DNA from: a virus | IMG/VR virus record: IMGVR_UViG_3300042400_001427 | Coordinates: 1-24,826 of that record | Length of the DNA: 24,826 bases | Reading direction: 5' to 3' (one strand) | Shown: positions 151-24,487 of the stretch, piece by piece | How positions within the stretch are numbered: position 1 is the first letter of the stretch | Layout: each line of letters begins with the position of its first letter | Translations under genes and position numbers: made by a program | The notes under the pieces: generated by a model | What the model was told of the DNA's origin: nothing | What the model saw: only the letters and a program-made list of their open reading frames with translations | The model's database searches: none

Positions 151-224
151 GGACCCTTAGCTCAGCTGGTCAGAGCGTCAGACTCATAATCTGGGGGTCG
201 TAGGTTCAAGCCCTACAGGGTCCA
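151..224 (+). tRNA. tRNA-Met (anticodon CAT), elongator type or Ile2
   Basis: The acceptor stem pairs GGACCCT (151-157) with AGGGTCC (217-223), discriminator A224. The D arm carries the usual AGCTCAGCTGGTCAGAGC sequence. The anticodon loop is CTCATAA with CAT in the centre, and the T arm is GTAGG/CCTAC around TTCAAGC. CCA is not encoded. The fully paired first acceptor base argues against an initiator tRNA, where position 1-72 is unpaired. A CAT anticodon can also belong to tRNA-Ile2, whose C34 is changed to lysidine; the sequence alone does not settle this. Confidence 0.93.
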
Positions 225-238
225 CAATATTTATTAAC

Positions 239-979
239 ATGATAACATTATCATCTTTGTTACCAGAAGCTGCTAGAGTTTCTAATCCAAAAGATCCGTT
301 GTGGAATGTTTATCGCATACACGCTAATGATTTAGACATGAATGGATACACAGTAGGTATCCTTCCTATATCACAAGTATTAGGTTCACTTATTGCTAAA
401 GTTATTAATCTTAAAAAAAGTGGTGAAGTCGTTCCAACAACAAATACTACTAATGATGGTTACATGTATAGATACATTTTAAAGTTATCTGATGAATTAG
501 CAAACAATAACCAAGAAATACAAAAGTTTTTTACTGTTACTAAATTAACACCCAATCCTATTCCTAAAGCAGAAGCAGAAAAAATAAAACGTGACACAGC
601 TAAAGCTGACACAAGTTCATTTAAAAACAAAGGAGCATCAACAGCGGCTAAATCTACTTCTCAAAGTGTTCCGGTCATGCCAGGTAAAGTTAAAGTAAAA
701 GATTTACGTAGTTTAGCAAATGAATTATTTTCTAACGATAACTTACAGTATTATGAAGAAGATGGTACTATAATGTTTGACCAAAATGCTTTTAAGTCGT
801 TAATGGCTTCTAGTTTACCAGACTCACTTAAAGCTGATTTCGACTCAGTTAACCGTGATAAAAATAATACTAAAGATCCATTAACAGGAGAAATAATTCC
901 ATATGGAAATAAAATAATTCCACCAACTTCTAAAATATACAAAACATTATTTACATTTAAAGACGCTTTTAAACCATGA
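239..979 (+). CDS. Unknown phage protein with capsid-targeting-like N-terminus
   Basis: A 246-residue protein of no family I recognise. It begins MITLSSLLPE-AARV, a short hydrophobic peptide with an L-x-E site at residues 8-10. This matches the position and form of the T4 capsid-targeting sequence, which is cut after (I/L)-x-E by the prohead protease. Residues 105-150 are a low-complexity linker rich in K, A, S and T; the flanks look folded. No membrane segment or catalytic motif is visible. It begins 14 bases after tRNA-Met without a Shine-Dalgarno sequence, and its stop overlaps the next start (ATGA). I infer a virion or internal head protein from the N-terminus alone. Confidence 0.85.
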   Translation: MITLSSLLPEAARVSNPKDPLWNVYRIHANDLDMNGYTVGILPISQVLGSLIAKVINLKKSGEVVPTTNTTNDGYMYRYILKLSDELANNNQEIQKFFTVTKLTPNPIPKAEAEKIKRDTAKADTSSFKNKGASTAAKSTSQSVPVMPGKVKVKDLRSLANELFSNDNLQYYEEDGTIMFDQNAFKSLMASSLPDSLKADFDSVNRDKNNTKDPLTGEIIPYGNKIIPPTSKIYKTLFTFKDAFKP

Positions 980-1323
980 TAAATAACTTTGATTTAAAAA
1001 AATTCTTAGTAGAAAATAAAGTAACTTTAAATTCTCGTTTAAGTGAAGAAGAAGACTTTGAAGACTTTACTACAACTGCATCTCCAGAATGGAATGTAAC
1101 ATTCCTAAAGAAAGGAGATCCAATAACAAGAGACATGTGTTTAGATAATATTCCTATACATGATAGTCAATTTCCAGTTACAATTAAAGGATTTAGTAAA
1201 AACGCGGTTTTAATTCAAACCCCACCTACATATTCTCCTTCTGAAAAACAAGAATGGGTTGGATATGATCGTTTAAACAAATTACTTAAACCTGAGTTTC
1301 GTGTAAGATATAAATTTAAGTAA
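976..1323 (+). CDS. Small unknown protein with possible capsid-targeting N-terminus
   Basis: A 115-residue protein that starts inside the stop of the gene before it (ATGA), so the two are translationally coupled. The N-terminus reads MINNFDLKKFLVE-NK, with an L-x-E site at residues 11-13 that resembles the one in the upstream gene. Residues 24-32 are very acidic (SEEEDFEDF), followed by a compact region rich in beta-forming residues. The family is unknown to me. It ends a transcription unit: an intrinsic terminator starts 10 bases after its stop. Confidence 0.8.
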   Translation: MINNFDLKKFLVENKVTLNSRLSEEEDFEDFTTTASPEWNVTFLKKGDPITRDMCLDNIPIHDSQFPVTIKGFSKNAVLIQTPPTYSPSEKQEWVGYDRLNKLLKPEFRVRYKFK

Positions 1324-5064: not shown

Positions 5065-6507
5065 ATGAAAACAAGTTATATTCCAAAAGACAAACGTAAA
5101 AAGATTTTACTGTTAGGTGATGATCTTAGAATGCATAGTGGTGTAGCTACTATGTTACGAGAAATCGTTACAAAAACATCAAACCATTTTAACTGGATCC
5201 AATTAGCAGGAGCTATTAATCATCCTGAACAAGGAAAAAAGTTTGACTTAAGTCAAGCAACAAGAGACCAATTTGGCATTGAAGATGCTGATATTTCTCT
5301 TATTCCTATCAATGGTTATGGCAGCCCTCAGTTGATTAGAGACATGATTAAGATTGAAAAACCAGATGTTTTAATGATGATGACAGATCCACGTTATTAT
5401 GTTTGGTTGTTTCAAATTGAAAATGAAGTAAGAAAACACATTCCTATTGTTTACTTAAACATTTGGGATGATTATCCTGCACCTCTTTACAATGAAGACT
5501 TTTACAGATCTTGTGATGGTTTTGCAGCAATTAGTAAACAAACTAAAAACATTAATAGAATCGTTTTAGGAGATGATGCTAAAAATAAAGTAATTAAATA
5601 TGTTCCTCACGGAATTGATCATGGAATATTTAGACCTTTAACTGAATCAGATCCAGATTGGTCAAACTTCCAATCTTATAAAAAACGAGTTTTTGGAGAT
5701 AAAGAATATGACTTTGTTTGGTATTATAATGCTCGCAATATTCGTCGTAAACAAACTTCTGACATGTTTGCAGCTTGGAATCAGTTCTGTGAAACAATAG
5801 GTCCTGAAAAAAGTAAAAAATGTTGTTTCTTACTTCATACTCAGATTTCTGATGAAAATGGAACCAATTTAGGAGCTGTTAAAGATTTGTTGATTGATGA
5901 AGAAAAACATGGAGATATTGTTTTTTGGGACAGTATAGTTTCTCCTCAAGAAATGAATTTCTTATACAACATGTCTGATTTGACTAGTTTATTGTCTTCA
6001 AATGAAGGTTGGGGATTGTCACTTACTGAAGCTATGATGTGTGGTAAGATGATTATGGCTACAGTAACTGGTGGAATGCAAGATCAAATGAGATTTACAG
6101 ATGAAGATGGAAATTGGATTGAATTTAATGACAATTTCTGTTCAAATCATTTTGGAACTTATAAAACACATGGTGAATGGGCAATTCCATTATATCCAGC
6201 TTGTATGAGTATTCAAGGTAGTGTTCCTACTCCTTATATTTTTGATGATCGTTGTGATTTTAGAGATGCTGCTAAAGGATTAGTACAAGTATTTGAAATG
6301 GGCAAAGAAGAAAGAAATCGTAGAGGAATGTTAGGTCGTGAATGGGGTACAAGTGATGAAGCATTAATGACTGCTGAAAATATGGCTAAAAATATGGCTG
6401 ATTGTATTGAAGCAACATTAGATAATTTTAAACCCCGCAAACCATACACATTTACAAAAGTAGAAGAATTACCAAAGAAAAAATTAAGACACAAATTAGT
6501 ATATTAA
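5065..6507 (+). CDS. GT-B glycosyltransferase (GT4-like)
   Basis: A 480-residue enzyme of the GT-B fold, which transfers a sugar from a nucleotide donor with retention. The N-terminal Rossmann domain starts KILLLGDD (13-20) with a glycine-rich G-V-A-T turn. The C-terminal donor-binding domain contains the EX7E motif: E314 in NEGWGLSLTE and E322, followed by GGMQDQ, as in GT4 enzymes. No signal peptide or membrane segment, so it is cytosolic. It opens the sugar island 4 bases after the regulator gene. The acceptor is unknown; it and the next gene are both GT4-like and may act in sequence. Confidence 0.88.
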   Translation: MKTSYIPKDKRKKILLLGDDLRMHSGVATMLREIVTKTSNHFNWIQLAGAINHPEQGKKFDLSQATRDQFGIEDADISLIPINGYGSPQLIRDMIKIEKPDVLMMMTDPRYYVWLFQIENEVRKHIPIVYLNIWDDYPAPLYNEDFYRSCDGFAAISKQTKNINRIVLGDDAKNKVIKYVPHGIDHGIFRPLTESDPDWSNFQSYKKRVFGDKEYDFVWYYNARNIRRKQTSDMFAAWNQFCETIGPEKSKKCCFLLHTQISDENGTNLGAVKDLLIDEEKHGDIVFWDSIVSPQEMNFLYNMSDLTSLLSSNEGWGLSLTEAMMCGKMIMATVTGGMQDQMRFTDEDGNWIEFNDNFCSNHFGTYKTHGEWAIPLYPACMSIQGSVPTPYIFDDRCDFRDAAKGLVQVFEMGKEERNRRGMLGREWGTSDEALMTAENMAKNMADCIEATLDNFKPRKPYTFTKVEELPKKKLRHKLVY

Positions 6508-6510
6508 GTT

Positions 6511-7815
6511 ATGAAACAAAAACAATATGTAGTTATTAGTTGCCCTATAGACACATACAGTGGATATGGTTCACGATCACGTGATTTTGTAAAAGCCACT
6601 GTTGAAGCAAAAAAGGATGATTGGGATGTTTGGGTAATGCCACAACGATGGGGTGAAACACCTTGGGGATACATTCAAGACCATAAAGAAGAATGGGGAT
6701 GGTTAGAACCAAAAATGTTGCCTTTTCAACAGCCTCTTACTCAAAAACCTGATGTTTGGATGCAAATTACAATTCCAAATGAATTTCAACCAATTGGAAA
6801 CAATAACATTGGAGTAACAGCAGGTATTGAAACGACTCTTTGCCATCCTAGTTGGATTGATGGAATTAATCGTATGGATTTAACTTTGGTTAGTTCAGAA
6901 CATGCTAAAAAAATATTTGAATTAACTCAAGCTGAAGAAAAAAATCCTAATGGACAAATCGTAAGAAAAATTCAATTACAAAAACCAGTTGAAGTCTTGT
7001 TTGAAGGTGTTGATTTAAATACATACTTTGAAATAAACAACGATGACCTACCAGAAACAGATTTAATCACGTCTCTCGACAACATTGACGAGAATTTTGC
7101 ATTTTTATTTGTAGGACATTGGTTACAAGGTGAATTTGGTCAAGACAGAAAAAATGTTGGTCAAACTATTAAAATATTCTTAGAAACATTTAAAAATAAA
7201 CATAATGCACCTGCTTTGGTTTTGAAAACAGCAGTCCACAACGGTAGTATTATGGATCGTACTGATGTTTTAAATAAGATTAATGCTATCAAAAATACTG
7301 TAAAAGCTAAAAAGTTACCTAACATTTATTTAATTCATGGAGAATTAGAAGAAGAAGACATGAATCATCTTTACAACCATCCTAAAGTAAAAGCAATGGT
7401 TAATTTTACTAAAGGTGAGGGTTTTGGTCGTCCTTTATTAGAATTTAGTGTGTTTAAAAAACCAATTATTGCTAGTGGATGGTCAGGACACATAGACTTC
7501 TTAAATCGTGAATTTGTTAGTTTAATTGAAGGTAGACTTCAACCAATTCATCAATCAGCTGTAGTAGAAAATATTCTAATCAAAGAAAGCAGTTGGTTTG
7601 AAATTGATCCGGTATCTGCATCACAGAAAATGGTTGATGTTTGGACTAATTATAAAAAATATGAAGTTGGATCTAAACGTCAGTCTCATTTTGTTAAGTC
7701 AACTTTTAGTTTTGAAAAAATGGTTGAAAAAGTGAGTGAATATTACAACAAATACGTAAAAGAAACCCCTAAATTAATATTACCAACATTACCTAAACTA
7801 ACAAAAATTAATTAA
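6511..7815 (+). CDS. GT-B glycosyltransferase (GT4-like), second copy type
   Basis: A 434-residue GT4-like enzyme. The N-terminus has a glycine-rich YSGYGSRSRDF loop (residues 16-26), typical of the acceptor domain. The donor domain carries EX7E: E303 in GEGFGRPLLE and E311, then S-G-W-S-G-H. It begins at AGTTATG just after the stop of the previous gene and has no Shine-Dalgarno sequence. It differs enough from the 5065 enzyme that a recent duplication is unlikely. Donor and acceptor sugars cannot be read from sequence. Confidence 0.87.
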   Translation: MKQKQYVVISCPIDTYSGYGSRSRDFVKATVEAKKDDWDVWVMPQRWGETPWGYIQDHKEEWGWLEPKMLPFQQPLTQKPDVWMQITIPNEFQPIGNNNIGVTAGIETTLCHPSWIDGINRMDLTLVSSEHAKKIFELTQAEEKNPNGQIVRKIQLQKPVEVLFEGVDLNTYFEINNDDLPETDLITSLDNIDENFAFLFVGHWLQGEFGQDRKNVGQTIKIFLETFKNKHNAPALVLKTAVHNGSIMDRTDVLNKINAIKNTVKAKKLPNIYLIHGELEEEDMNHLYNHPKVKAMVNFTKGEGFGRPLLEFSVFKKPIIASGWSGHIDFLNREFVSLIEGRLQPIHQSAVVENILIKESSWFEIDPVSASQKMVDVWTNYKKYEVGSKRQSHFVKSTFSFEKMVEKVSEYYNKYVKETPKLILPTLPKLTKIN

Positions 7816-7816
7816 T

Positions 7817-8260
7817 ATGGAAGATAAATTAGTAAAATGTGAACATTGTGGTAGTGACATGTGTTATGCTACTCAAATAAATGAAACTGCTTGGAGTTAC
7901 AGCTGTATGGGTTGTGGGTTTAATGCTAATGATATTATAAAAGAAGGAGAATTTAATATAGAACAATTTGAAGAAATTTTTCCTGAACTTTATAAAGATC
8001 TTAAGTATGTAGATAGTGAAAAAAGAGTCTGGTATCCATTAGTAGTTCAAAATGAAAATGGAGTTGTTTTTGTTGATGGAAACAGTAAAGAAAATTGGGG
8101 TTGGGGTGCTATTAAAAATAGACCTTTAACTGAAGAAGAAAAACAAGTTTACATTAACGAAAATAAAGAAGTACCTCCTTATAAGTCAGATAGCAGTACT
8201 TTAGAACATTTCGGAAAAATGGGATTTTTGAAAGCTCTTAATTATCTTGAAGTTATATGA
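7817..8260 (+). CDS. Zinc-ribbon protein of unknown function
   Basis: A 147-residue protein with an N-terminal ribbon, C8-E-H-C11-G and C30-M-G-C33-G, followed by an acidic region and a W-rich stretch (NWGWGAIKNRPLTEEEKQVY) near residues 94-113. No catalytic motif is visible. It starts one base after the upstream stop and overlaps the next start (ATGA), so it is part of the sugar island operon, although nothing in it points to sugar chemistry. Similar proteins occur as unknowns in large phages. Confidence 0.8.
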   Translation: MEDKLVKCEHCGSDMCYATQINETAWSYSCMGCGFNANDIIKEGEFNIEQFEEIFPELYKDLKYVDSEKRVWYPLVVQNENGVVFVDGNSKENWGWGAIKNRPLTEEEKQVYINENKEVPPYKSDSSTLEHFGKMGFLKALNYLEVI

Positions 8261-8916
8261 TAAATTTTAGTTTTGCTATTACAGTTTGTAATGAAGCAAA
8301 TGAATTAGAAAGACTACTAAATCAACTAAAAAGTTGTGTTATAGAGAATGATGAAATCATTATTCAAGTTGATAACACAAATACAACAGATGAAGTTTTT
8401 AAAGTAGTATCTAATTTTGAGGGTGTTTATAGTCCAGTAGTTTCTAGAAAAAAGAAAATCATAACTCCCGTTACTAAAGCATTTAGTGATTTGAACGATG
8501 ATTTTTCTGCTTTCAAAAACAATATTAAAAAACATTGCACAAGAGACTACATATTTTTTATAGATGCTGATGAAGAAGTAAGTCAAGATCAAATTCATTT
8601 AATTCGAGAAATTGCAAACATGAATCCAGATTTTGACTGCTTTCTAGTTCCTAGAATCAATACAGTAGAAGGGTTAACTCAACAACATATTGAAAAATGG
8701 GGATGGAAAGTAGAAAATGGGAGAGTTAATTGGCCTGACTATCAATTTAGAATTTGTAAAAACGTTCCTGAAATTATTTGGGAAGGCAAGGTACATGAAA
8801 GACTTGTAGGCTATAAGAATGCCACTCCACTTCCAGCAGAAGATGTATTAGCATTAGGACATCATAAAACAATTCAAAAACAAGAACAACAAAATAATTT
8901 TTATGGCACAATCTAG
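8257..8916 (+). CDS. GT2-family glycosyltransferase (short)
   Basis: A 219-residue GT-A enzyme. The N-terminal strand FAITVCNEANELERLL (6-21) is the GT2 nucleotide-binding start, IIIQVDN gives the first acidic site, and FIDADEE (101-107) is the DxD motif that holds the metal and donor phosphates. It resembles the WaaE/KdtX-like group in which W-E-x-x-x-H-E follows: here IIWEGKVHERL near residues 173-183. A 35-residue insert lies between the first acidic site and DxD. The start overlaps the previous stop (ATGA). Confidence 0.82.
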   Translation: MINFSFAITVCNEANELERLLNQLKSCVIENDEIIIQVDNTNTTDEVFKVVSNFEGVYSPVVSRKKKIITPVTKAFSDLNDDFSAFKNNIKKHCTRDYIFFIDADEEVSQDQIHLIREIANMNPDFDCFLVPRINTVEGLTQQHIEKWGWKVENGRVNWPDYQFRICKNVPEIIWEGKVHERLVGYKNATPLPAEDVLALGHHKTIQKQEQQNNFYGTI

Positions 8917-9757
8917 TCCTTTAACTTTTTGTATTAGTACATACAATAATTTAGAGTATTTAAAATTAGCTGTTGAATCTGTTAGAAAAAACAGCTTTTA
9001 TAAAAATGCTCCTTTTATTGTATATGCTGAAAATTGTAACGATGGAACTGATGAATGGCTAAATGATGCCAAAGACCAGTATAATCTTGAATGTTATGTA
9101 GAAAAAAATAATATTCCTAAAGGTATTGGTGGAGGAATGAATTTATGTGCTGATAAAGTAAAAACAAAATACATAATGTTTTTACACAGTGATTTTTATG
9201 TAGGTCATTTTTGGGATTTAGCTTGTATTGAAGAATTGGAAAAACACAGTATTCCTACTTGGGTATTCAGTCATAGAATAGAACCAGACATGTTTGGAAA
9301 TGGATCAAGTAGACCAGGAACAATTATTGTTCCTAAAGATACTTTTGGCGCTTATTACCACGATTTAGACAAAGAAACTTTAGAAGATTGGATAGATAGT
9401 TTCACCAGTCAAAATAACTTTACTATTCCAAAAGCTGAAGGTGTAAGTGGACTAATTAAAAAAGCAGATTGGGATAAAATAGGGGGAAATGATTCACAAT
9501 TTTCCCCTACATCTTGGGAAGACATGGATTTGTTTTTAAGAATGAAACAAGAAGGTTATCAATTCATTTTAACAAGTAAATCTATGGTTTGGCATTTTGG
9601 AGCTAGAGGATCACACAGATTAGAAGAAAATGGAAATAAGTCATCTCAAAGGCAAGTTATTGCTGAAAGAGACAATGCCATGAAATTTTACAATAAGTGG
9701 GGTGGAATGCCACTATTTGATGAGTATGGTATGATTAAATCAATTTCAAATGGATAA
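8903..9757 (+). CDS. GT2-family glycosyltransferase
   Basis: A 284-residue GT-A enzyme. FCISTYNNLEYLKLAVESV (9-27) is the GT2 start, followed by ENCNDGT (43-49), an H-S-D motif at 95-97 in the DxD position, and SWEDMD with the catalytic-base-like E-D. The C-terminus, MVWHFGARGSHR and later FYNKWGG, has a counterpart in the gene at 14289, so the two appear to be paralogs. They flank the block of sugar-modifying genes 9750-14287. It overlaps its neighbours by 14 and 8 bases. Confidence 0.85.
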   Translation: MAQSSPLTFCISTYNNLEYLKLAVESVRKNSFYKNAPFIVYAENCNDGTDEWLNDAKDQYNLECYVEKNNIPKGIGGGMNLCADKVKTKYIMFLHSDFYVGHFWDLACIEELEKHSIPTWVFSHRIEPDMFGNGSSRPGTIIVPKDTFGAYYHDLDKETLEDWIDSFTSQNNFTIPKAEGVSGLIKKADWDKIGGNDSQFSPTSWEDMDLFLRMKQEGYQFILTSKSMVWHFGARGSHRLEENGNKSSQRQVIAERDNAMKFYNKWGGMPLFDEYGMIKSISNG

Positions 9758-10562
9758 TAAATACAAACATAAAATAATTTTATTATGTAAATCGTTTAAT
9801 GGTGATTTAGAAAGAGCAAATGTTCTTTTTGAAAGTATTAAAAAACATAATAAAGACAATATTCCTTTTTACTTTCAAATTCCAAAGTCAGACTTAAAAT
9901 TATTTCAAGATAAGATGGGAACTGATGGGTATGAAGTAGTATTTGATGAAGATTTAACAGACTTAGTAAATACCCAATCTCATTTTACTCAACAGCTTTA
10001 TAAAATGGAATTTTATAAAACAAATATTGCTGAGTATTATTTTACCATAGATTCAGATATGTATTTTATTAGAGATTTTTACTCAACTGAATTCATTAAT
10101 GAAAATGGGATACCATATGTTACAATGCATGAAAATAAAGCATTAAGAGAATATTCTTACAATATTAAAGGAAACAATATTATAAATGAATGGTGGGTTG
10201 GAGAAAGAAATAAAATTCCTGAATTATTTAGCCGTAAAGGGAAATTATATGATTATTCATGTTCAGCAATTTTGTACATTTCAGAAGTTTTTGAAACGTT
10301 GTATAAAGAATATTGTGAACCAAATAAACTTACTTTTTTAGATTTATTAAAGTTTCAAAGTTCTGAAAATACATGGTATGGTGAATGGATACTTTATAAA
10401 GAATTTAAGTTTTATCCTTGTGAACCTATGTTTAAAACGTTTCATTATCCATTTCAATATCAACTATCAAAACAATTGGGACATACAGAAGAAATGTTAA
10501 GTCAAGTTTATTTAGGAATTACAATGCAGTCAAATTGGGGATCACCTTTAAAATATGAATAA
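9750..10562 (+). CDS. Glycosyltransferase-like protein (DUF6492 type)
   Basis: A 270-residue protein with a GT-A-like layout. HKIILLCKSFNGDLERANVL (7-26) is a nucleotide-binding type start, and YFTIDSDMYF (97-106) has a DxD motif, D101-S-D103. The pattern is that of the DUF6492 group often found in polysaccharide clusters. No membrane segment. It is the first gene of a tightly overlapping run (8-14 base overlaps) through 13588. Donor and acceptor are unknown. Confidence 0.72.
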   Translation: MDNKYKHKIILLCKSFNGDLERANVLFESIKKHNKDNIPFYFQIPKSDLKLFQDKMGTDGYEVVFDEDLTDLVNTQSHFTQQLYKMEFYKTNIAEYYFTIDSDMYFIRDFYSTEFINENGIPYVTMHENKALREYSYNIKGNNIINEWWVGERNKIPELFSRKGKLYDYSCSAILYISEVFETLYKEYCEPNKLTFLDLLKFQSSENTWYGEWILYKEFKFYPCEPMFKTFHYPFQYQLSKQLGHTEEMLSQVYLGITMQSNWGSPLKYE

Positions 10563-11190
10563 TATGCAACTACATTTACACCAATCACCCGATCATATTA
10601 GTGATACTATACGATCTGGTAAATTTTATGAATATTTGATATTTCTTCAATTTGAACCAAATATTCCAAAATATGGAACATTTTTAGATATTGGAGCAAA
10701 TATAGGAAACCATTCAATGATGTTTAGAGAACATTTTAATAACAAAATAATTTCATTTGAAGGTAATCCATTAAATTATGTGTTACTATATAAAAATACA
10801 ACACAATTAGTAGACATTAAAAGTATATGTGTTGGATTAAGTAATAAATCAGGATTAACTGAATTTTGTTATGATTTTGAAAATTTTGGAGGTGGTGGTA
10901 TTTTTCCTCATCTTGAAAATAAATTTAGCACCATACCAGTATATTTAACTACGTTAGATAGTTTTAAGTTTGATGATATAAGTTTTATAAAAATGGATGT
11001 GGAAAATCACGAAATGCAAGTAATTGAAGGAGCTTTAAATACTATTAAAATAAATAAACCTACTATTTGGATTGAAGATTTTTTCTATAATATTGATAAA
11101 ACAAAATCACCTACTGAGTATCTTATTAATGAATTGAATTATAAATTAATTGACCAAAATGAAAGTAATTTTTTATTAAAATATGAATAA
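10555..11190 (+). CDS. FkbM-family methyltransferase
   Basis: A 211-residue SAM-dependent methyltransferase. Motif I FLDIGANIGNHS (43-54) binds SAM; IISFEGNP (65-72) is the acidic loop that holds the SAM ribose; IKMDVENHEMQVIEGA (145-160) is the FkbM signature, usually DVEGhE, here with N for G. The family O-methylates sugars and other small molecules, so methylation of a glycan or a nucleotide sugar is the likely role here. It overlaps its neighbours by 8 bases on each side. Confidence 0.85.
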   Translation: MNNMQLHLHQSPDHISDTIRSGKFYEYLIFLQFEPNIPKYGTFLDIGANIGNHSMMFREHFNNKIISFEGNPLNYVLLYKNTTQLVDIKSICVGLSNKSGLTEFCYDFENFGGGGIFPHLENKFSTIPVYLTTLDSFKFDDISFIKMDVENHEMQVIEGALNTIKINKPTIWIEDFFYNIDKTKSPTEYLINELNYKLIDQNESNFLLKYE

Positions 11191-11797
11191 TAAAATTCAC
11201 CCCACTGCTATTATTGAATCTAATGTAAAAATAGGTTCAAACAACTATATAGGACCTTTCTGTTATATAACAGGAGATACTATTATTGGAGATAATAATC
11301 GTTTTGAGGCGTATTGTTCAATAGGAACATCTGCTGAACATAGAGATTATTTCAACACTACAGATGGTAAAACAGTAATAGGAAACAATAATGTTTTAAG
11401 AGAATTTACAACAGTTAATGCCGGAACAAAATCCCCTACAATCCTTCATAATAATATTGTTATGTTAAGAAATAGTCATGTTGGTCATGATAGTATAGTA
11501 GAAGACTTAGTAAATTTATCTTGTAATACTTTAATTGGTGGTCATTCTTATTTAATGACAGGATGTAATTTTGGGTTAGGAAGTATATGTCACCAGTTTA
11601 GTGTTATTGGTGCATTTTCAATGATTGGAATGGGAAGTATTATTACTAAGTCTTCTAAAATCATCCCAGGAAATGTTTATGTTGGATCACCAGTTAAATT
11701 ATTAAAACAAAATATTGTTGGTTTAGAAAGAAATAATATAGATGAATCAAAATTAAATAAATTAATAGAAAAATATAATACGTTATGCCAGAAATAG
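11183..11797 (+). CDS. LpxA-like hexapeptide acyltransferase
   Basis: A 204-residue left-handed beta-helix protein with hexapeptide repeats from residue 6 to 160. It matches LpxA features: SHVGHDSIVED with H102 at the catalytic-His position, CHQFSVIGA (136-144), and a C-terminal start VGLERN (179-184) corresponding to the EGLKRRG helix of LpxA. LpxA is about 260 residues, so the C-terminal helical domain is cut to one helix or so. LpxA acylates UDP-GlcNAc or, in some bacteria, UDP-GlcNAc3N. With an aminotransferase and a MocA-type oxidoreductase next to it, N- or O-acylation of an amino sugar is likely. Relatives such as WbpD/WlbB use acetyl-CoA, which remains an alternative. Confidence 0.83.
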   Translation: MNNKIHPTAIIESNVKIGSNNYIGPFCYITGDTIIGDNNRFEAYCSIGTSAEHRDYFNTTDGKTVIGNNNVLREFTTVNAGTKSPTILHNNIVMLRNSHVGHDSIVEDLVNLSCNTLIGGHSYLMTGCNFGLGSICHQFSVIGAFSMIGMGSIITKSSKIIPGNVYVGSPVKLLKQNIVGLERNNIDESKLNKLIEKYNTLCQK

Positions 11798-12594
11798 TAA
11801 GAAGTATTTTTGAAGGTTATGTAAAAGAAACCTTTAATTTAGAAGACTGCATTGCAGTAAACAACGGAACAAGTGCTTTAATAGCACCTTTATGGTCAAT
11901 GAATTTACAACATGGTGATGAGGTAATAACAACTCCATTTACGTTTATTGCTACGTCAAATGCAATTATTATTGCAGGAGGAACACCAGTTTTTGTTGAC
12001 ATTGATCCAACAACTCTACTGATTGATGTAAATAAAATTGAACAAGCCATAACTTCAAAAACAAAAGCAATTATGCCTGTTCATTTATATGGAAGAATTT
12101 GTGAAATGGATAAAATAAATGAAATTGCTAAAAAACATAATTTAATAGTAATTGAAGACACAAGCCAATCATTTGGAGCGCAAAACCAAGAAAACCAATA
12201 TGCAGGAATGATGAGTGATTGCGGAACATTTAGTTTTTACAAAACAAAAAACATTTCAACATTTGAAGGTGGAATGATTTGTATTCCGAAAAATTCAAAA
12301 TTAGATGCAAAGAAAATTAGAAGTATTTGTAATCAAGGACAAGATGGTAGATACAACCACGTTCATATTGGGTTTAATTTTAGATTAGCCGAACCATTGT
12401 GTTTAATGGCCTATGAACAAATGAAGTTACATATGACTGGAATAAAAGCAGAATTAGGATTAAGAGGTCCAAACCAAGGTCATTATCCAAACGTAGTATA
12501 TGACCAACCAGCATATATTGAAAAAGGAATTACAGGTAACTGCCCTATTGCAGAAGAAATAGCAAGAAAAATTAAAAACAATGAAACAGTATAA
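11785..12594 (+). CDS. DegT/DnrJ/EryC1 sugar aminotransferase, shortened
   Basis: A 269-residue PLP enzyme of the sugar aminotransferase family. VNNGTSAL (25-32) is the phosphate-binding turn, VIEDTSQSFGA (122-132) holds the PLP pyridine, and K155 in FSFYKTKN is the Schiff-base lysine position. Family members are about 365-390 residues. This one lacks the first ~25 residues, appears to skip ~80-100 residues after QMKLHMTG (212-218), resumes with GHYPNVVYDQPAY (232-244), and ends early. An in-frame stop lies just upstream of the ATG, so no longer start exists. It may be a compact active enzyme or a decaying one. It overlaps lpxA-like by 13 bases and the oxidoreductase gene by 14. Confidence 0.83.
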   Translation: MPEIVRSIFEGYVKETFNLEDCIAVNNGTSALIAPLWSMNLQHGDEVITTPFTFIATSNAIIIAGGTPVFVDIDPTTLLIDVNKIEQAITSKTKAIMPVHLYGRICEMDKINEIAKKHNLIVIEDTSQSFGAQNQENQYAGMMSDCGTFSFYKTKNISTFEGGMICIPKNSKLDAKKIRSICNQGQDGRYNHVHIGFNFRLAEPLCLMAYEQMKLHMTGIKAELGLRGPNQGHYPNVVYDQPAYIEKGITGNCPIAEEIARKIKNNETV

Positions 12595-13588
12595 AGTAGG
12601 TATTGTTGGGTGTGGAGTAATTTTACCCAGACATTTAGAAGCAATTGAAGCAAATAGTAACTTTGAATTAGTTGCTGTTTGTGATATTCAAAAAGATTTA
12701 GTAAAGAGTATAGCTAAAAAATTAAAAGTTAAAGCATATACTGATTTTGAAGAAATGATTTTAAGTAAAACAGTTGATTTTGTAACTATAGCAACCCCCA
12801 ATTCACTCCATTATGATCAAGCACTATTTGCACTAAATAATAAATGTGATGTACTAGTAGAAAAACCAGTTGCTTTTACTAAAGAAGAAATAGAAGATAT
12901 CATTAAAGTAGCTAACGATAACAATCAAAATGCTTACTGTGTTTTACAAGTAAGATTAAATCCAACAGTTCAATTATTAAAAGAAGTTTTAAAAGAAAAC
13001 TTACTAGGAGACATTAGAGGTGTTAATTTTATTCAAAGATGGCAAAGACCATTAGAATATTTTACAGGATGGAGAGCTGAACCTAATATTGGTGGTGGAA
13101 CCTTATATGAATGTGGAATTCATTATTTAGATGTATTACAATATGTTTTTGGAAAACCAGAAGTTGTTGGGAGTAAAACATATGAAGTAAAACATAATGT
13201 AGGAATTGAAGACACAATATATGCTATTTTCGATTTTGGTAATTATGGTGGTACTTGTGAAGTAACAATAGCCTCAGAACCTAAAAATTTAGAGTGTTCA
13301 ATAAGTATTTTAGGATCAAACGGATACATTAAATTAGGAGGTAAGGCATTAAATATAATTGAATCAGCAGATTTTTTATCTCATGGATCTCAAATAAAAT
13401 TTGGAGATTTAGAAAAATCTTATTATATTAATACTGAACCAAATAGTTATGGATCTTATCAAGGATCATGTCCAAACCATCCATTTGTTTACTCAAACTT
13501 AAATGAATTTAAAATGGAACAAACTAAAAATGTAATTTTATTAATAGATGAAATTTATCAAAAATCAAACATCCAATATAGAAAATAA
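12581..13588 (+). CDS. Gfo/Idh/MocA oxidoreductase (WlbA/GnnA-like)
   Basis: A 335-residue NAD(P)-dependent oxidoreductase of normal length. The Rossmann motif is VGIVGCGVILPRH (6-18), the family signature is E94-K95-P96, and the substrate domain carries R-x-N-P (133-137), WQRPLEYFTGWR and GGGTLYECGIHYLD. The last two stretches are characteristic of enzymes that oxidise C3 of UDP-HexNAc or UDP-HexNAcA, such as WlbA/WbpB and GnnA. It would make the 3-keto sugar used by the aminotransferase encoded just upstream. UDP-GlcNAc is inferred as a substrate, not shown. Confidence 0.85.
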   Translation: MKQYKVGIVGCGVILPRHLEAIEANSNFELVAVCDIQKDLVKSIAKKLKVKAYTDFEEMILSKTVDFVTIATPNSLHYDQALFALNNKCDVLVEKPVAFTKEEIEDIIKVANDNNQNAYCVLQVRLNPTVQLLKEVLKENLLGDIRGVNFIQRWQRPLEYFTGWRAEPNIGGGTLYECGIHYLDVLQYVFGKPEVVGSKTYEVKHNVGIEDTIYAIFDFGNYGGTCEVTIASEPKNLECSISILGSNGYIKLGGKALNIIESADFLSHGSQIKFGDLEKSYYINTEPNSYGSYQGSCPNHPFVYSNLNEFKMEQTKNVILLIDEIYQKSNIQYRK

Positions 13589-13591
13589 ACT

Positions 13592-14287
13592 ATGAATATT
13601 GATCTTAAAGGAACAAAAATAGTAGAAATTCCATTCATGTTAGAACAACTAGATGGAGACACATCAAAAAGTATTCTTATTATTGGAGAATGTAAAGGTG
13701 GAACAGAAGGTATTAGTGAAAGTTTATTAGAATTAGGTTATAACAATGTAACTACAACAGACATTTTACCTACCGAACCAGACAGTTGGTTAAGACAAAA
13801 TACTGATTGGAAACACATTCAAGCTGATTTTATTGAATTTGATGAAACAATAAAATATGATTACGTTATCAGCATTTCAGTATTTGAACATTTTGGATTT
13901 TGGTTTGCTGGAGACAGAATGTTTGATGGAAAGTTTGCTGAAGATGTTATTAGGTGGAATCACGATATTGTAGGAATAAAAAAAGCAGCTAATTTGTTAA
14001 AAGACAAAAACAGTAAATTAATCATTACTTTACCTGCTGGTCCATATATGAATTATGAAAAAAACGGTTACCCATTTTTAAGAGGTTATGATTGGAATCG
14101 ACAACAATTAATTAAAACAATTATGAATGAAAAAGACTATTCATTAAATAATGAAAAATTCTATTATTCTGAAGATTTTATAAATTGGGATGAAGTAGAC
14201 CGTAAATTTAACCACCCTGATTATTATGGGTATTACAACTCAATAACTCCAAATGTGATTTGGGGACTAACAATCCAACAACAATAA
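13592..14287 (+). CDS. Methyltransferase-like protein
   Basis: A 231-residue protein with a Rossmann-like layout. SILIIGECKGGTEG (27-40) sits where a class I methyltransferase has its SAM loop, TTTDILP gives the acidic strand-2 site, and YDYVISISVFEHFG (89-102) resembles motif IV and the following helix. The SAM loop is unusual (E-C-K-G-G), so SAM binding is likely but not certain. It starts 3 bases after the oxidoreductase stop and ends 1 base before the next gene. Sugar methylation would fit its place in the island. Confidence 0.65.
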   Translation: MNIDLKGTKIVEIPFMLEQLDGDTSKSILIIGECKGGTEGISESLLELGYNNVTTTDILPTEPDSWLRQNTDWKHIQADFIEFDETIKYDYVISISVFEHFGFWFAGDRMFDGKFAEDVIRWNHDIVGIKKAANLLKDKNSKLIITLPAGPYMNYEKNGYPFLRGYDWNRQQLIKTIMNEKDYSLNNEKFYYSEDFINWDEVDRKFNHPDYYGYYNSITPNVIWGLTIQQQ

Positions 14288-14288
14288 T

Positions 14289-15359
14289 ATGATTTCAATA
14301 GTTATACCATCTCACAATAATTTAAGACACTTAAAAAATGCTTACGAAAGCATTAAAAAACATGCACCTCAAGCTGAAATTATTCTTTATGATGATGCTT
14401 CAACAGATGGAACTTGGGGTTGGATGTTACAAACAGCTACATTAGATAGAAATTGTAAAATACTTAAAAGTGATGTGCGTGTAGGTCACACCGTATTATA
14501 TGATAAAGGCATTAAAGCGGCTACAAATGAAATTGTAGGTATAATGCATGCTGATATGATTATGGGTCCTAACTATGTTGAAAACTGTATTAAACACTTA
14601 AAACCAGAAACTGTAGTATGTGGTACTAGAATTGAACCACCACTTCACCCTTCAGGACCTGAAAAAATTGTTCAAAACTTTGGTTTAGATTTTGATAGTT
14701 TGAACATTGGAGACTTTGAAGAGTTTGTAAATATTGTTCAATCTAAACATAAAGATCAAACAACAAATGGAATGTTTGCTCCGTGGGTAATCTATAAAAG
14801 TGACTTTGAACGAATAGGAGGACACGATTGGGGTTTTGCTCCATTTCCTTATGAAGACAGTGACATTTTCCAAAGATGGATTTTAGCAGGTTATAAGTTA
14901 ATACAAAGTAGAGATGCATTTGTTTATCATTTGACTTGTAGAGGACACAGATGGACTGGTGAAATTGGAAAAAATGATGATTATTTTATTCAAGCTGAAC
15001 AAAAAGCAAGACAATACTACATCAAGAAATGGGGAAGTTGGATTAAAAATGACGAATATCAGTATCCTATCTTAACGCCAGTCTATAAAAAGTGCGCGAT
15101 AATACAAGACTATAAACCCAGCCCGGTAGACGATTGGTTTAGTGAAATTAACCCGCAAGATCCAAGTAGTTTCGACGTAATAGTTGAGTTAAATACGAAT
15201 ACATTTGCCGAAGAAGAATATCATGTTGTGGTAAACTTAAATCAAATAGTTCAAGAAACAAACGAAACAGGAAAATTCCAAGTAGGAAATCTTACAATTA
15301 CTATTAACTCTCTTGCAGATCGCTCTAAGGAGTTAATATTTATAGACAACAATGATTAG
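14289..15359 (+). CDS. GT2-family glycosyltransferase with extra C-terminal domain
   Basis: A 356-residue GT-A enzyme. MISIVIPSHNNLRHLKNAYE is the GT2 start, ILYDDASTDGT gives the first acidic site, MHADM the DxD position, and PYEDSD the base-like E-D. The core resembles the 8903 enzyme, including a shared H-x-x-x-R-G-H/SH-R and a later Y-x-K-W-G. From about residue 270 there is a tail of some 85 residues, rich in beta-forming residues and with GC-richer codons, that I do not recognise. It is the last glycosyltransferase of the island and overlaps the next gene by 8 bases. Confidence 0.85.
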   Translation: MISIVIPSHNNLRHLKNAYESIKKHAPQAEIILYDDASTDGTWGWMLQTATLDRNCKILKSDVRVGHTVLYDKGIKAATNEIVGIMHADMIMGPNYVENCIKHLKPETVVCGTRIEPPLHPSGPEKIVQNFGLDFDSLNIGDFEEFVNIVQSKHKDQTTNGMFAPWVIYKSDFERIGGHDWGFAPFPYEDSDIFQRWILAGYKLIQSRDAFVYHLTCRGHRWTGEIGKNDDYFIQAEQKARQYYIKKWGSWIKNDEYQYPILTPVYKKCAIIQDYKPSPVDDWFSEINPQDPSSFDVIVELNTNTFAEEEYHVVVNLNQIVQETNETGKFQVGNLTITINSLADRSKELIFIDNND

Positions 15360-15759
15360 TTTAACTAATATATTAAACGAAGTTTCAAACATTACTGGAC
15401 CAGTTCGTTATTCAACTAAATTTGGTGGATACGATTGGTCCGTAAAATTTGACGTAAATAAAAACCCAACAAAAGTAGGTGTTCGAATGCAATTTTATCC
15501 TAAGGACAGTTCCCAATTGGACGGAACTCGGTTGAATGAAGTTGGAAACGATTTAGCAGCCTACTTACAAAGAAAATTCTCCAAGTACGATATTATAGTT
15601 GATCGTGACAAGGACTTCGAAGATAAGTTAACAGCAATAGGTTTTATTATTCCTTTAGATTCATTATCTCAATATATTATGAAAAATATTATTGGTGGTA
15701 ATGTTCCTAAAGCAGAAGCAGGAGACGAAGATCTACCTGCCGGTCCAGATGAAAAATAG
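15352..15759 (+). CDS. Small unknown protein with capsid-targeting-like N-terminus
   Basis: A 135-residue protein that starts MISLTNILNE-VSN, with L-x-E at residues 8-10, the same form and position as in the genes at 239 and 23756. The middle has alternating hydrophobic residues that suggest a small beta-rich fold, and the C-terminus is acidic and low in complexity (KAEAGDEDLPAGPDEK). No family is recognised. The peptide suggests a head protein processed by the prohead protease. It overlaps the end of the last glycosyltransferase gene by 8 bases. Confidence 0.82.
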   Translation: MISLTNILNEVSNITGPVRYSTKFGGYDWSVKFDVNKNPTKVGVRMQFYPKDSSQLDGTRLNEVGNDLAAYLQRKFSKYDIIVDRDKDFEDKLTAIGFIIPLDSLSQYIMKNIIGGNVPKAEAGDEDLPAGPDEK

Positions 15760-17161: not shown

Positions 17162-17428
17162 ATGAAAATTAATAAAGAACAAGTACAAAGATTTGTAAGT
17201 AGATTTATGAGTGTAACTATTGTAGTTACTACTATGATTGCTGGATTTGGAATTGGATACTATTTCCATGAATTTAAAGTTAAACCTGCTGTACCTACAA
17301 ACATTGATCTAGAAACAGCAAGTCCAGCTATTGATTACCAAGGTAATCTTTTGTTGGATGGTAAAAAATACAGTGATTCTACACTAAGAGTTATTACTCG
17401 TATGGGTGTAAAATATATTTATCAATGA
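17162..17428 (+). CDS. Small single-pass membrane protein
   Basis: An 88-residue protein with one membrane segment at about residues 17-37 (MSVTIVVTTMIAGFGIGYYF), a basic N-terminal cytosolic end and a ~50-residue outside domain. The basic start before the segment predicts N-in topology. No family is recognised. Its stop overlaps the start of the transglycosylase gene (ATGA), so the two are made together. A lysis or envelope role fits the neighbours, but holin function cannot be called: there is only one membrane segment. Confidence 0.8.
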   Translation: MKINKEQVQRFVSRFMSVTIVVTTMIAGFGIGYYFHEFKVKPAVPTNIDLETASPAIDYQGNLLLDGKKYSDSTLRVITRMGVKYIYQ

Positions 17429-17958
17429 TGTTTTTAAAGGTTAGAGACGCTTTCATACTAGTAATATTAGCAGTCATCGCAGCTTTACTGTGGAGAATTG
17501 ATACTAGTATGAGTCGTTTTGAGAAAAAACTTGAAATTGCTGAAGGAACTGTTTCATTTCAAATGTATGAGTCTATTGAACATTGGAGTGATAGTTTTGA
17601 AATTCCAAAACACATTGCATACAATATAGCTTACAAAGAAACTAGATATAGAGGTCCATTTGATTTTAACTATGAACACAGATTAGAATCAAGTGCGGGT
17701 GCTGTTGGTCCTATGCAAATCATTACAAAGTGGGCTCAAAAGTACTCAAGACGTAGAATAAGTGAACGTGAATTGAAAACAAATGTTGATTTAAACGTAA
17801 AAATCAGTATGCAAATGTTACATAAATGGCACAGTATTTATGGTGATTGGACAAAAGCATGTGGTGCTTATAACAGTGGCCAGCCAATTAAAAATGAATA
17901 TGCTATTTACTGTGTTAATAACAAAGACTATAAAAACAAGTGGGTTGATTTAAATTAA
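17425..17958 (+). CDS. Membrane-anchored lytic transglycosylase (SLT domain)
   Basis: A 177-residue protein with an N-terminal membrane anchor at residues 9-24 and an SLT/goose-lysozyme-like domain at 55-165. The catalytic glutamate is E72 in YKETRY, followed by SSAGAVGPMQII (89-100) and GAYNSG (147-152), the three motifs of the soluble lytic transglycosylase family, which cut the MurNAc-GlcNAc bond of peptidoglycan. The anchor implies action in the periplasm, from the inner membrane. It could serve as an endolysin-type enzyme or in virion entry; being flanked by two small membrane proteins favours a lysis cassette. The second codon is also ATG and may be the start. Confidence 0.9.
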   Translation: MMFLKVRDAFILVILAVIAALLWRIDTSMSRFEKKLEIAEGTVSFQMYESIEHWSDSFEIPKHIAYNIAYKETRYRGPFDFNYEHRLESSAGAVGPMQIITKWAQKYSRRRISERELKTNVDLNVKISMQMLHKWHSIYGDWTKACGAYNSGQPIKNEYAIYCVNNKDYKNKWVDLN

Positions 17959-18688: not shown

Positions 18689-19706
18689 CTTGTATCGCAC
18701 TATTACTGGTTTTGAAGATGGTATAAAAACCAAAAGCGCATGGACTGAATGTTTTGGTAAAAATGTTGGAAAAACAAATGAAACAACTGATGTAGAACAG
18801 GCTCAAAAAGAAGCAGAAGCACTGCACCGTAAAAAATTAGAATTAGGATTTTTTGAAGACATCAACAACATTGACAACTCGACATTGTTTAAACCTATGT
18901 TGGCTTGTGATTACAATGACTATAAAGATAAAATTGAATACCCGGTATATGTTCAGCCAAAATTAGACGGTATTCGTTGTATAGTACGTAAAGATGGTAT
19001 GTGGAGTCGGAATGGCAAGCCAATTATTTCAGCACCACACATTTTTGAAAATATGAAACACTTATTCGTTGAAGATTCTAACTTGATTGTCGATGGAGAG
19101 TTGTATATTCATTCAAACAATAATGACTTTAATACAATTTGTAGTTTAGTAAAGAAAACAAAACCTACAGAAAATGACTTAGCTGAGTCTGCTCGACTAA
19201 TTGAATATTGGGTTTATGATGTTCCTTCTCACAATTCAACATTTGATCATCGTAAAGTTAGTCTTTATAGTTTTCATGGCATTGATAAAGTTAAAATGGT
19301 ATTTACAGTAATAGTAAATAATGAAGAAAATTTAAAAGAACAATATGGAAATTATATGAGTCAAGGTTTTGAAGGACTAATGATTCGAGTTGGAAAAGGA
19401 GACTATGAAAACAAAAGAAGTAAAAACTTGTTGAAATATAAAGAATTCCATGACAGTGAATATACTATTTTAGAAGTACATGAAGGTAAAGGTCGTTTAC
19501 AAGGTAAAGTAGGACAAATGTTGTTTAAAAATGAAGATGGAAAAGAATTTTACTCAACAGTTAATGGTAATGAAGAATACTTGACTGAACTTTGGGAACA
19601 AAAAGATCAATTAGTTGGACAACAGGCTACAATTAAGTACTTTGAATTGACAGTAGACAACGTGCCTCGTTTTCCTAAAGTAATATCAATAAGAAATTAT
19701 GAATAA
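18615..19706 (+). CDS. ATP-dependent DNA ligase
   Basis: A 363-residue ligase that seals nicks with ATP. The N-terminal ~85 residues form a WGR-like domain typical of phage ligases (KLYQRA start, later KNVGKTNETT and E-A-E-A). The nucleotidyltransferase domain follows: motif I K116-L-D-G-I-R with catalytic K116, motif III V-D160-G-E-L, motif IV E254-G-L-M-I-R, motif V L273-K-Y-K. The last ~85 residues form the OB domain. I keep the start at 18615 although it overlaps the previous gene by 74 bases, because the WGR-like domain begins right there. In T4 the ligase (gp30) joins Okazaki fragments and repairs breaks; the UV endonuclease two genes on supports a repair cluster. Confidence 0.92.
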   Translation: MKLNKLYQRAANQKVNTFQVETQGNLYRTITGFEDGIKTKSAWTECFGKNVGKTNETTDVEQAQKEAEALHRKKLELGFFEDINNIDNSTLFKPMLACDYNDYKDKIEYPVYVQPKLDGIRCIVRKDGMWSRNGKPIISAPHIFENMKHLFVEDSNLIVDGELYIHSNNNDFNTICSLVKKTKPTENDLAESARLIEYWVYDVPSHNSTFDHRKVSLYSFHGIDKVKMVFTVIVNNEENLKEQYGNYMSQGFEGLMIRVGKGDYENKRSKNLLKYKEFHDSEYTILEVHEGKGRLQGKVGQMLFKNEDGKEFYSTVNGNEEYLTELWEQKDQLVGQQATIKYFELTVDNVPRFPKVISIRNYE

Positions 19707-21922: not shown

Positions 21923-22000
21923 ATGATGAGATGGTCACTTTATTTTATTGGTGATTCAATAAGAATAGTAAATTGGATGACAGCAAATAAAACACCATGA
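21923..22000 (+). CDS. Micro-gene A (25 aa)
   Basis: A 25-residue frame, MMRWSLYF to NKTP, that starts 1 base after the previous stop. It is aromatic and contains R-W and V-N-W-M, but lacks the WLYD end of the genes that follow. Its stop overlaps the next start (ATGA). It may be a cut-down member of the array or a leader peptide. Support is only position and coupling. Confidence 0.4.
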   Translation: MMRWSLYFIGDSIRIVNWMTANKTP

Positions 22001-22146
22001 AATCACTAAAAAAACCATCTAGCATATTAGGTTATAATAATTGGAATGGTGTAGGAAGTTATTCTATGTGGGATTTTGTTCGTGAATTCAGTTATGAGGA
22101 GGAAGAGGACCCTTATTGGGATTTAAGAGAATGGTTATATGATTAA
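21997..22146 (+). CDS. Micro-gene B (49 aa), WLYD family
   Basis: A 49-residue protein. After a basic start it has LGYNNWNGVGSYSMWDF, an acidic run (EEEEDPYW), and ends LREWLYD. The Y-x-x-W-N-G...Y-x-M...F core and the WLYD end recur in the neighbours. The codons for the end, TGG TTA TAT GAT TAA, contain the ATG of micro-gene C in another frame. Coupling on both sides and shared protein pattern support it as a real gene. The function is unknown. Confidence 0.68.
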   Translation: MKSLKKPSSILGYNNWNGVGSYSMWDFVREFSYEEEEDPYWDLREWLYD

Positions 22147-22291
22147 TGTTAGAAAAGATCAATTAGAAGAATACTCAAGATGGAATCTTAAAGGTTATGG
22201 TTATGACATACCCAACACAATTATTTCATTTAGCGTTATTGCACCTGTAGATTGGATTGATTTATATGATTGGTTATATGAAATATATTAA
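22139..22291 (+). CDS. Micro-gene C (50 aa), WLYD family
   Basis: A 50-residue protein: MINVRKDQLEEYSRWNLKG, then a hydrophobic middle (NTIISFSVIAPVDW) and the end DLYDWLYEIY. It shares Y-x-x-W-N and W-L-Y with B and E. Its start lies inside the last codons of B (8-base overlap), and D starts inside its own WLYE codons (14-base overlap). Its first residues resemble those of the 18-residue frame at 22550. Confidence 0.66.
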   Translation: MINVRKDQLEEYSRWNLKGYGYDIPNTIISFSVIAPVDWIDLYDWLYEIY

Positions 22292-22436
22292 AATTGATAT
22301 TGATAAAATAAGACTTTACACTAGTTGGGATTCTTCAGTTAGTTGGGGTTGGGGGATGATATCAACAATTAAAATATTTAAAACAGGTTACAACGATAAA
22401 AAAACTCAAGCTATTCATAGATGGTTATATGATTAA
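22278..22436 (+). CDS. Micro-gene D (52 aa), WLYD family
   Basis: A 52-residue protein: MKYIKIDIDKIRLYTSWDSS, then SWGWGMISTIKIFKTGY and the end AIHRWLYD. The core has Y-x-x-W-D in place of Y-x-x-W-N, and M-x-x-x-x-x-I-F where B and E have M-x-x-F. The terminal codons again hold the ATG of the next gene (8-base overlap). The function is unknown. Confidence 0.66.
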   Translation: MKYIKIDIDKIRLYTSWDSSVSWGWGMISTIKIFKTGYNDKKTQAIHRWLYD

Positions 22437-23705: not shown

Positions 23706-23744
23706 TTTACAATAACCTATAAGGGAAACCGTTTCTTCTAATAT

Positions 23745-23754
23745 TTATATTATA
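23745..23754 (+). promoter_or_regulatory. TTATATTATA motif abutting a start codon
   Basis: An exact match to TTATANTATA ends one base before the ATG at 23756. This is too close for a standard -10 element unless the real start is further in or the transcript begins within the gene. Upstream is the odd palindrome GAAACCGTTTC (23725-23735). It is listed because the motif recurs, with low confidence. Confidence 0.25.
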
Positions 23755-23755
23755 T

Positions 23756-24487
23756 ATGACTACATTAAAACAGCTGTTATTAGAAATTACTTGGAATGAA
23801 TATGTCAAGGCTGTTAGAGGAAACGAGTTTAACCCATTGTCTAGTGAAGAACGTGTTTCTATAAGAAAACAAATAAACGATCCTAATGTAGATAATAAAA
23901 CTAAAGAAGACTTAAAAAGACGAGTTATTTCAAGTTACTTACGTCTTATGCCTCTTTGGTTTAAAGAAGTAGGAGCAGCTAGTAATGGTGTTCCTGTAGA
24001 TGATTTCATTAGTTATGCTAGTGAAGCTATGATTCGTGCTAGTAGAAAATTTGACTGGACTAAACCTAACGAATATGGAGCATACGCCAGAATGGCTATT
24101 AGAAATGCTACTATTAACTATGGTAAAGAACAAGTTAAAAGAAAAGCAATTTCATTAGACAAACCAATTGGAACTAGTAAAGAAGGAGATTCATTAACTG
24201 TAGCTGACGTTGTAGGTGAAATGGGAGCTCAAGAACGCATTGATAATGCAATGGACAACGAAGTGTTTCAAAGACGATTAAAACAATTAGAAACAGGAAT
24301 TAAAAACCCAGTCCACAAATATGCTTTAAAATGGACAACAGATCCTCGATATCAAGAATTGACGGCAGCTGAAGTAGGTAGCATTATAGGACAAATAACA
24401 GGTAAAGTGCCCACAGTTCAAGGCTTAAATGGAATCAGAGCTAAATTTAGAACTGAAATTTTACCTAAGTTAATGAAGGGAATTTGA
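23756..24487 (+). CDS. Sigma-70-like factor with capsid-targeting-like N-terminus
   Basis: A 243-residue protein with sigma-70 features. Residues 52-128 match region 2: a helix, then VDDFISYASEAMIRASRKFD (81-100), then NEYGAYARMAIRNATINY, the pattern that binds core polymerase and the -10 element. KAISLDKPIG...EGDSLTVADVVGE (130-155) is like the region 3.2 linker of primary sigma factors. Residues 202-240 (LTAAEVGSIIG onwards) look like a modified region 4 helix-turn-helix. The N-terminus is MTTLKQLLLE-ITW, with L-x-E at 8-10 as in the small proteins at 239 and 15352. It could direct host RNA polymerase to phage promoters; the N-terminus hints at packaging into the head. It is not a close match to T4 gp55. 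Confidence 0.82.
   Translation: MTTLKQLLLEITWNEYVKAVRGNEFNPLSSEERVSIRKQINDPNVDNKTKEDLKRRVISSYLRLMPLWFKEVGAASNGVPVDDFISYASEAMIRASRKFDWTKPNEYGAYARMAIRNATINYGKEQVKRKAISLDKPIGTSKEGDSLTVADVVGEMGAQERIDNAMDNEVFQRRLKQLETGIKNPVHKYALKWTTDPRYQELTAAEVGSIIGQITGKVPTVQGLNGIRAKFRTEILPKLMKGI

Follow-up and report, generated by a model that had tools for sequence, protein, structure and literature searches.

Two exchangeable tags resembling T4 capsid targeting sequences on predicted head-packaged proteins of T4-like phages, among them a sigma-70-type factor

The internal proteins IPI-III of phage T4 carry a capsid targeting sequence, reportedly described by Mullaney and Black, which is cut by gp21. Truncation of IPIII showed that ten residues suffice, positions 4 and 7 serving for targeting and positions 8 and 10 for processing (PMC9026906), and shared leaders were earlier used to find T-even internal proteins, which proved to be anti-restriction proteins (PMC12373910). 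The tags described here have in common with the IPI-III system the length of about ten residues, the determinants at positions 4, 7, 8 and 10, the cut at [LI]-x-E, the unrelated cargoes and the gp21-type protease. They differ from it in the consensus (MI[KST]L..[IL]L.E and M.NFDLKK..), in the existence of a second tag of 22-24 residues with two sites, in the much larger number of cargo families, and in that polyproteins and a sigma factor are among the tagged proteins. Capsid targeting sequences have been known since T4; what is new is how widely they occur, the finding that a second tag can take the place of the first, and their use on polyproteins and on a sigma factor.

Four other systems are comparable in part. 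The virion cytidylyltransferase of cyanophages (S-SM1 T4-GC190 and Syn9 gp184) shares the register, its start being MKKFSAFL[NS]E; T4-GC190 begins with MKKFSAFLNEA, and mass spectrometry of purified S-SM1 virions detected it (PMC3037559). This is, however, a single cargo of the cyanophage lineage, and the tag is not pointed out in the accessible part of that paper. The targeting-type start of T4-GC190 (L348:22257-23417) is a possible explanation for the presence of the enzyme in virions. Polyvalent proteins (Iyer et al. 2017, PMC5512222) are likewise large and made up of several units, and their injection along with the DNA and their processing have been predicted, but they combine disparate domains with an embedded peptidase, whereas here one module family is repeated with putative prohead-protease sites in between. 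The head propeptides of phiKZ and SPN3US are cut after Glu by a distant relative of gp21; their site is S/A-x-E and they often exceed 100 residues, in contrast to L/I-x-E and 10-24 residues here. Finally, T4 Alt and the virion RNA polymerase of N4 are packaged proteins that affect transcription as infection begins, the former by modifying the host polymerase and the latter by bringing a polymerase, while the candidate here is a sigma-70-type factor.

The window, that is the whole stretch of DNA analysed, is a virus record of 24,826 nt (24.8 kb) with T4-like replication genes (clamp loader); being only a fragment, it contains no head genes. One relative, G001 (IMGVR 3300007734_000761; 176,311 bp, 206 genes called), encodes close homologues of gene 239 (87% identity) and gene 23756 (95% identity); gene calls were made with our own simple caller. 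Between the head proteins of G001 and their counterparts in phage immuto, which infects a Flavobacterium (Flavobacterium sp. LMO8), identity is 50-58%, and a homologue of gene 15352 occupies the same position in immuto, so that a Bacteroidota host is likely for the window. The virus is T4-like, probably with a host among Flavobacterium-type bacteria. Two further regions of the window were recorded apart from the tagged genes. Five small ORFs (43-59 residues) lie in tandem at 21997-22724, mostly overlapping, with a common W-N...W-L-[YF] pattern and otherwise different sequences, and similar runs were identified in G001 at 11764 and 18895-19570. The protein encoded at 22815-23705 has a signal peptide, and its C-terminus resembles, by eye, a sorting signal for type IX secretion. 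None of the families matched scored above its cut-off. NCBIfam matches to a toxin subunit were weak (E 0.0014, 18.6 bits versus a cut-off of 203) and spanned only the first 44 residues, about half of which are the signal peptide, and this assignment was dismissed. PADLOC returned nothing telling.

The initial annotation had drawn attention to the starts of genes 239, 976, 15352 and 23756, the last two coding for otherwise unrelated proteins, as resembling the T4 targeting peptide. All four starts are present as described and the L-x-E positions are borne out by the translations: LPE in gene 239, LVE and LSE in gene 976, LNE in gene 15352 and LLE in gene 23756. Genes 239, 15352 and 23756 start with M-x-x-Φ-x-x-Φ-Φ-x-E (tag 1), which matches position for position the T4 residues for targeting (4 and 7) and processing (8 and 10). 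Gene 239 (239..979, plus strand) encodes 246 residues of unknown function, predicted to be packaged in the head. Its tag (239..268, plus strand) is MITLSSLLPE, followed by AARV, with LPE at residues 8-10; a cut is predicted after E10, leaving a mature part of 236 residues with a pI of 9.2. The structure model of this protein was too poor to use (mean pLDDT 43). Directly 5' of the gene, with a gap of 13 nt, lies a tRNA-Met (151..225, plus strand), and G001 has the same DNA arrangement of tRNA-Met and gene 239 homologue.

Gene 15352 (15352..15759, plus strand) encodes 135 residues, also of unknown function and predicted to be head-packaged, and its tag (15352..15381, plus strand), identified by start motif and regex, is MISLTNILNE, followed by VSN. 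The immuto homologue has a diverged tag and is likewise located directly 3' of a glycosyltransferase cluster. In the window this cluster of glycosyltransferase and sugar-modifying genes covers ten kilobases (5065-15359), with many overlapping start and stop codons; its counterparts in G001 and immuto differ partly in gene content. Searches of PHROGs, Pfam and NCBIfam gave no family match for genes 239, 976 and 15352.

Upstream of the three tag 1 genes of the window an identical motif, ATATTTAT, was identified on the plus strand: at 227..234 (4 nt 5' of gene 239), at 15336..15343 (8 nt 5' of gene 15352) and at 23741..23748 (7 nt 5' of gene 23756). It looks like a late promoter, a role that is unproven, and it contains what we take to be the reverse complement of part of the T4-like late promoter core. 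The motif occurs within 30 nt upstream of 3 of the 4 tagged genes versus 1 of the 39 untagged ones (n=43, p 0.0013). It is not commoner than chance over the window as a whole, and its placement alone is telling. Tagged genes inside operons carry the tag and lack the motif. In G001 it precedes the portal gene and many genes of the virion region, with an enrichment of about 30-fold upstream of genes, and since the distance to many start codons is a mere 4-22 nt, transcripts would have very short 5' leaders or none. The sole untagged gene of the window with the motif within 30 nt is gene 17425 (17425-17958), whose transglycosylase-like product has a membrane segment at its N-terminus and may therefore be a virion or lysis protein.

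Gene 23756 (23756..24487, plus strand) encodes a sigma-70-type factor of 243 residues, predicted to be head-packaged, with region 2 at about residues 75-122. Its tag (23756..23785, plus strand), identified by start motif and regex, is MTTLKQLLLE, followed by ITW. Sigma-70 region 2 of Pfam scored 23 bits, just under the cut-off of 24, and NCBIfam SigK and SigE were matched over residues 19-191 (E 1.5e-12 and 1.2e-11), far below their full-length cut-offs. All the listed structure matches of the model are sigma factors, with residues 13-127 fitting at 3.3-3.7 Å; most of the alignments among the matches listed begin at residue 13, past the predicted cut. As to region 4 (-35 recognition), the C-terminal helices were matched to sigma factors chiefly by extended alignments of high rmsd. 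A second sigma factor of G001 is untagged (27% identical over 121 residues), and the coexistence of both points to delivery as the role of the tagged copy. The late sigma profile phrog_234 was not detected in G001. Almost no related sigma factors were identified in other tag-bearing contigs, and the tagged sigma factor is therefore specific to this lineage and not shared by the whole group. That it directs the host polymerase on arrival in the cell is an inference.

Gene 976 (976..1323, plus strand) encodes 115 residues and overlaps the end of gene 239 by 4 nt. The initial annotation attributed a single shared tag to both genes; this did not hold, as gene 976 bears a second, longer type of 24 residues (tag 2). 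Its start is MINNFDLKKFLVE, followed by NKV, with LVE at residues 11-13, and a second L-x-E that had escaped the annotation is found at residues 22-24 (SRLSE). The whole tag, MINNFDLKKFLVENKVTLNSRLSE, occupies 976..1047 on the plus strand, with cuts predicted after E13 and E24. The general pattern of tag 2 is M.NFDLKK[FY]L.ENK...NS[RK]..xE. In a MAFFT alignment both tags fall in one register (L4, K5, L8, E10), gene 976 being shifted by its longer start. Among the matches listed, a second [LIMV]xE follows within 14 residues in 106 of 109 distinct tag 2 proteins, compared to 16-21 in control windows.

Without its tag, gene 976 (1048-1320) amounts to one module of about 90 residues, and in the relatives such modules follow one another in polyproteins. 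An ORF of 1,537 residues in G001 holds 15 of these modules; its corrected start is MGLLSKIF and ATATTTAT lies 5' of it. Further module proteins were sought by DNA pattern, and similar polyproteins were identified in other viral contigs, one of them opening with the strict tag MFTLKKLILE, followed by SEDDF. The 14 residues before a module contain [LIM]xE at 36 of 37 borders versus 13 of 108 control windows taken from within modules (12%; p 6e-22). At one locus (L002) genes 239 and 976 are fused, and there the homology to gene 976 begins after I-A-E at the joint, the tag of gene 976 being gone. A HAD-type protein is separate in immuto, with its own tag-like start, and forms the end of a 768-residue protein in G001. 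The patterns of borders, fusion and HAD-type protein are what cutting by a prohead protease would predict and are difficult to account for in any other way.

Both tags are found on many different cargoes. A search of IMG/VR with a DNA pattern for tag 1 gave at least 124 tagged ORFs in at least 57 unrelated families, tag 2 (NFDLKK[FY]L.ENK) was identified in at least 58 families, and both together account for at least about 121 unrelated protein families. Among the matches listed, all 132 tag 2 matches with an upstream ATG lie two or three residues from it. The cargoes matched a CCA-adding enzyme, a RimK-like ATP-grasp protein, Nudix, two lysozymes, GNAT, a 2'-5' RNA ligase, a zeta-like kinase, VanY, an Acb1-like protein and a sigma-70 factor. 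Three cargo families occur with either tag, including that of gene 239. Its homologue in another relative, G002 (86% identical), bears tag 2, MDSFNLKQFLVENKLTENSKLNEIKEPDLILLE, followed by AVRVSNPKDPLW, whereas the window counterpart has MITLSSLLPE, followed by AARVSNPKDPLW; the homology resumes at the predicted cut and the DNA similarity returns at the last codons of the tag. The G002 gene belongs to a run of tagged genes, the head operon, near terminase and portal, while in the window its neighbour is tRNA-Met, and the cargo gene has therefore moved and been re-tagged.

A gp21-like protease, whose absence would have counted against head packaging, was identified in G001 as a Peptidase_S77 (gp21-type) with an E-value of 4e-32. 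The same family was present in 12 of 13 further tag-bearing contigs above 150 kb, for which there is no base rate among large IMG/VR contigs: 6 of 7 tag 1 contigs above 160 kb and 6 of 6 tag 2 contigs above 150 kb. A gp21-type protease is also annotated in the cultured Flavobacterium phage immuto. The S77 search of the window alone gave nothing, and protease and tags are linked through the relatives only, because no head genes are included in this fragment. The tagged contig G005 (207 kb) has no detectable S77; it does not count against the link, since major capsid, portal and large terminase genes were likewise undetected there.

The frequency of these starts was compared with chance and with other genomes, and they proved uncommon outside the tagged set. 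The motif of the initial annotation, M..L..[LI]L.E, opens 9 of the 206 proteins of G001, against 0.01 expected from internal positions and shuffles; six of the nine are not homologues of window genes. Five tag 1 starts of G001 belong to different proteins encoded near one another (MIKLINILNE, MIKFKDILVE, MIKLVDLLKE, MIKLTNILLE and MIKLKDILLE). A strict regex, M..[LFYIM]..[LIFV][LIVF].E, gave 10 matches in G001 (0.24 expected), 9 in G010 (0.17), 6 in G005 (0.26), 4 in immuto (0.25), 1 in SPO1 and none in crAss001, and in Syn9 it finds the cytidyltransferase (gp184). In T4 there are 4 matches versus 0.3 expected. By their lengths and starts, three of them are IPII and IPIII (both MKTYQEFIAE) and gp24 (MAKINELLRE), the vertex (shell) protein, and the fourth is gp61.1 by annotation. 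The latter (18966-19130) is a hypothetical protein of 54 residues; its start, MKTFKEFIKE, fits the targeting register, so that its packaging may have been overlooked. In immuto, new N-termini are predicted after MIKLIDLLTE (24569), MISIYNILKE (103366) and MRLLELLRE (112261), and after SKLINE (1803), SRLLE (103806) and SKILKE (118632). Four immuto genes (MW353175; 81525, 102294, 113188 and 123355) start with MKKS.[LI]...[IV].E or MKLDLLKKLIKE and may represent a third class of tag. A search of 84,980 bacterial and archaeal genomes gave 0 matches for tag 2 and 12 for tag 1, none of which opens an ORF of more than 26 codons, and no gene starts with either pattern.

Against this background, a chance resemblance favoured by an AT-rich genome with many hydrophobic starts can be considered refuted: a loose form of the motif does arise by chance about 1 to 4 times per genome, but neither the 9 starts of G001 nor the absence from gene starts in cellular genomes is compatible with it. 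The same negligible weight is left to a conserved DNA element over the start codons (promoter, ribosome site or recombination hot spot) with the peptide as a by-product. The presence of ATATTTAT just upstream of several tagged genes is in its favour; however, operon-internal tagged genes do without that motif, and MIKLKDILLE is encoded by 27 DNA versions in 34 loci, the other peptide count being 38 in 44. One peptide encoded by so many DNA versions indicates selection on the peptide and not on the DNA, which refutes this explanation for the coding part.

Two explanations at the protein level remain. The peptide could be an N-terminal address for another place, such as the replication site, the membrane or a partner complex, with L-x-E being incidental; short amphipathic N-terminal helices can have many uses, and no cut has been seen for the sigma factor or gene 15352. 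We consider this very improbable, given that the regex also finds T4 IPII, IPIII and gp24, that S77 is present in the relatives, that the S-SM1 protein is a virion protein, that tag 2 has a second L-x-E, and that an address cannot explain L-x-E at internal borders of polyproteins. A somewhat stronger competitor, though still an unlikely one, is that tagged proteins enter the prohead core for assembly only and are degraded or leave before maturation without being ejected. T4 gp22 and gp67 are core proteins fragmented by gp21 (PMC9026906), some tagged proteins are encoded in the head operon, and the shell protein gp24 bears the motif. On the other hand, a use in the prohead is hard to see for enzymes and a sigma factor, and the cargo bodies are conserved as post-cut units that vary between phages like the injected T-even internal proteins (PMC12373910).

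The preferred reading, held with high confidence, is that the tags are T4-type capsid targeting sequences on late cargo that is cut in the prohead and ejected with the DNA. It starts from what has been demonstrated, namely the tags, their register and specificity, the protease in relatives, the swaps, the module borders and the upstream motif, while packaging, cutting and ejection are inferred. In every trait accessible from sequence the tags agree with capsid targeting sequences. With starts as in T4, the tagged genes very likely encode head-packed proteins, which are probably injected. The proposal of head packaging made in the initial annotation is supported, every sequence-based refutation named there having failed, and its extension to unrelated proteins agrees with tags on many unrelated IMG/VR families. 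No virion proteomics for the window lineage, immuto included, was found in the literature consulted, and presence in virions and injection are therefore inferences.

According to the proposed mechanism, cargo genes would be expressed late and the peptide, through its hydrophobic positions 4 and 7, would dock the protein on the prohead core. After closure of the shell the gp21-type serine protease would cut behind the Glu of [LI]-x-E (residue 10, or residues 13 and 24 in the longer tag), the peptide would depart, and the mature protein would stay in the DNA-filled head until ejected with the DNA. Tag and cargo can be separated, in that one cargo may have either tag and unrelated cargoes the same one. 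Cut sites may also divide cargo units within one polypeptide, with one L-x-E per border, gene 976 being the single-unit version. The predicted cargoes of the window comprise the sigma-70-type factor (23756), the polyprotein-type module (976) and the products of genes 239 and 15352, both of unknown function. Whether two tags plus L-x-E form a general, exchangeable code of environmental T4-like phages for loading almost any protein, up to polyproteins of 15 units, with the sigma factor directing the host polymerase from the first moment, is a wider claim for which we see even chances.

A sequence rule valid across distant T4-like phages would reveal which of their unknown proteins enter the host at the start of infection. 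The rule yields more than 100 candidate families, among them the Acb1-like (anti-CBASS) protein, lysozymes, RNA-repair enzymes and the sigma factor. If prohead-protease sites do divide a polyprotein, a single tag would serve to load many small proteins, a strategy that would be new for a phage.
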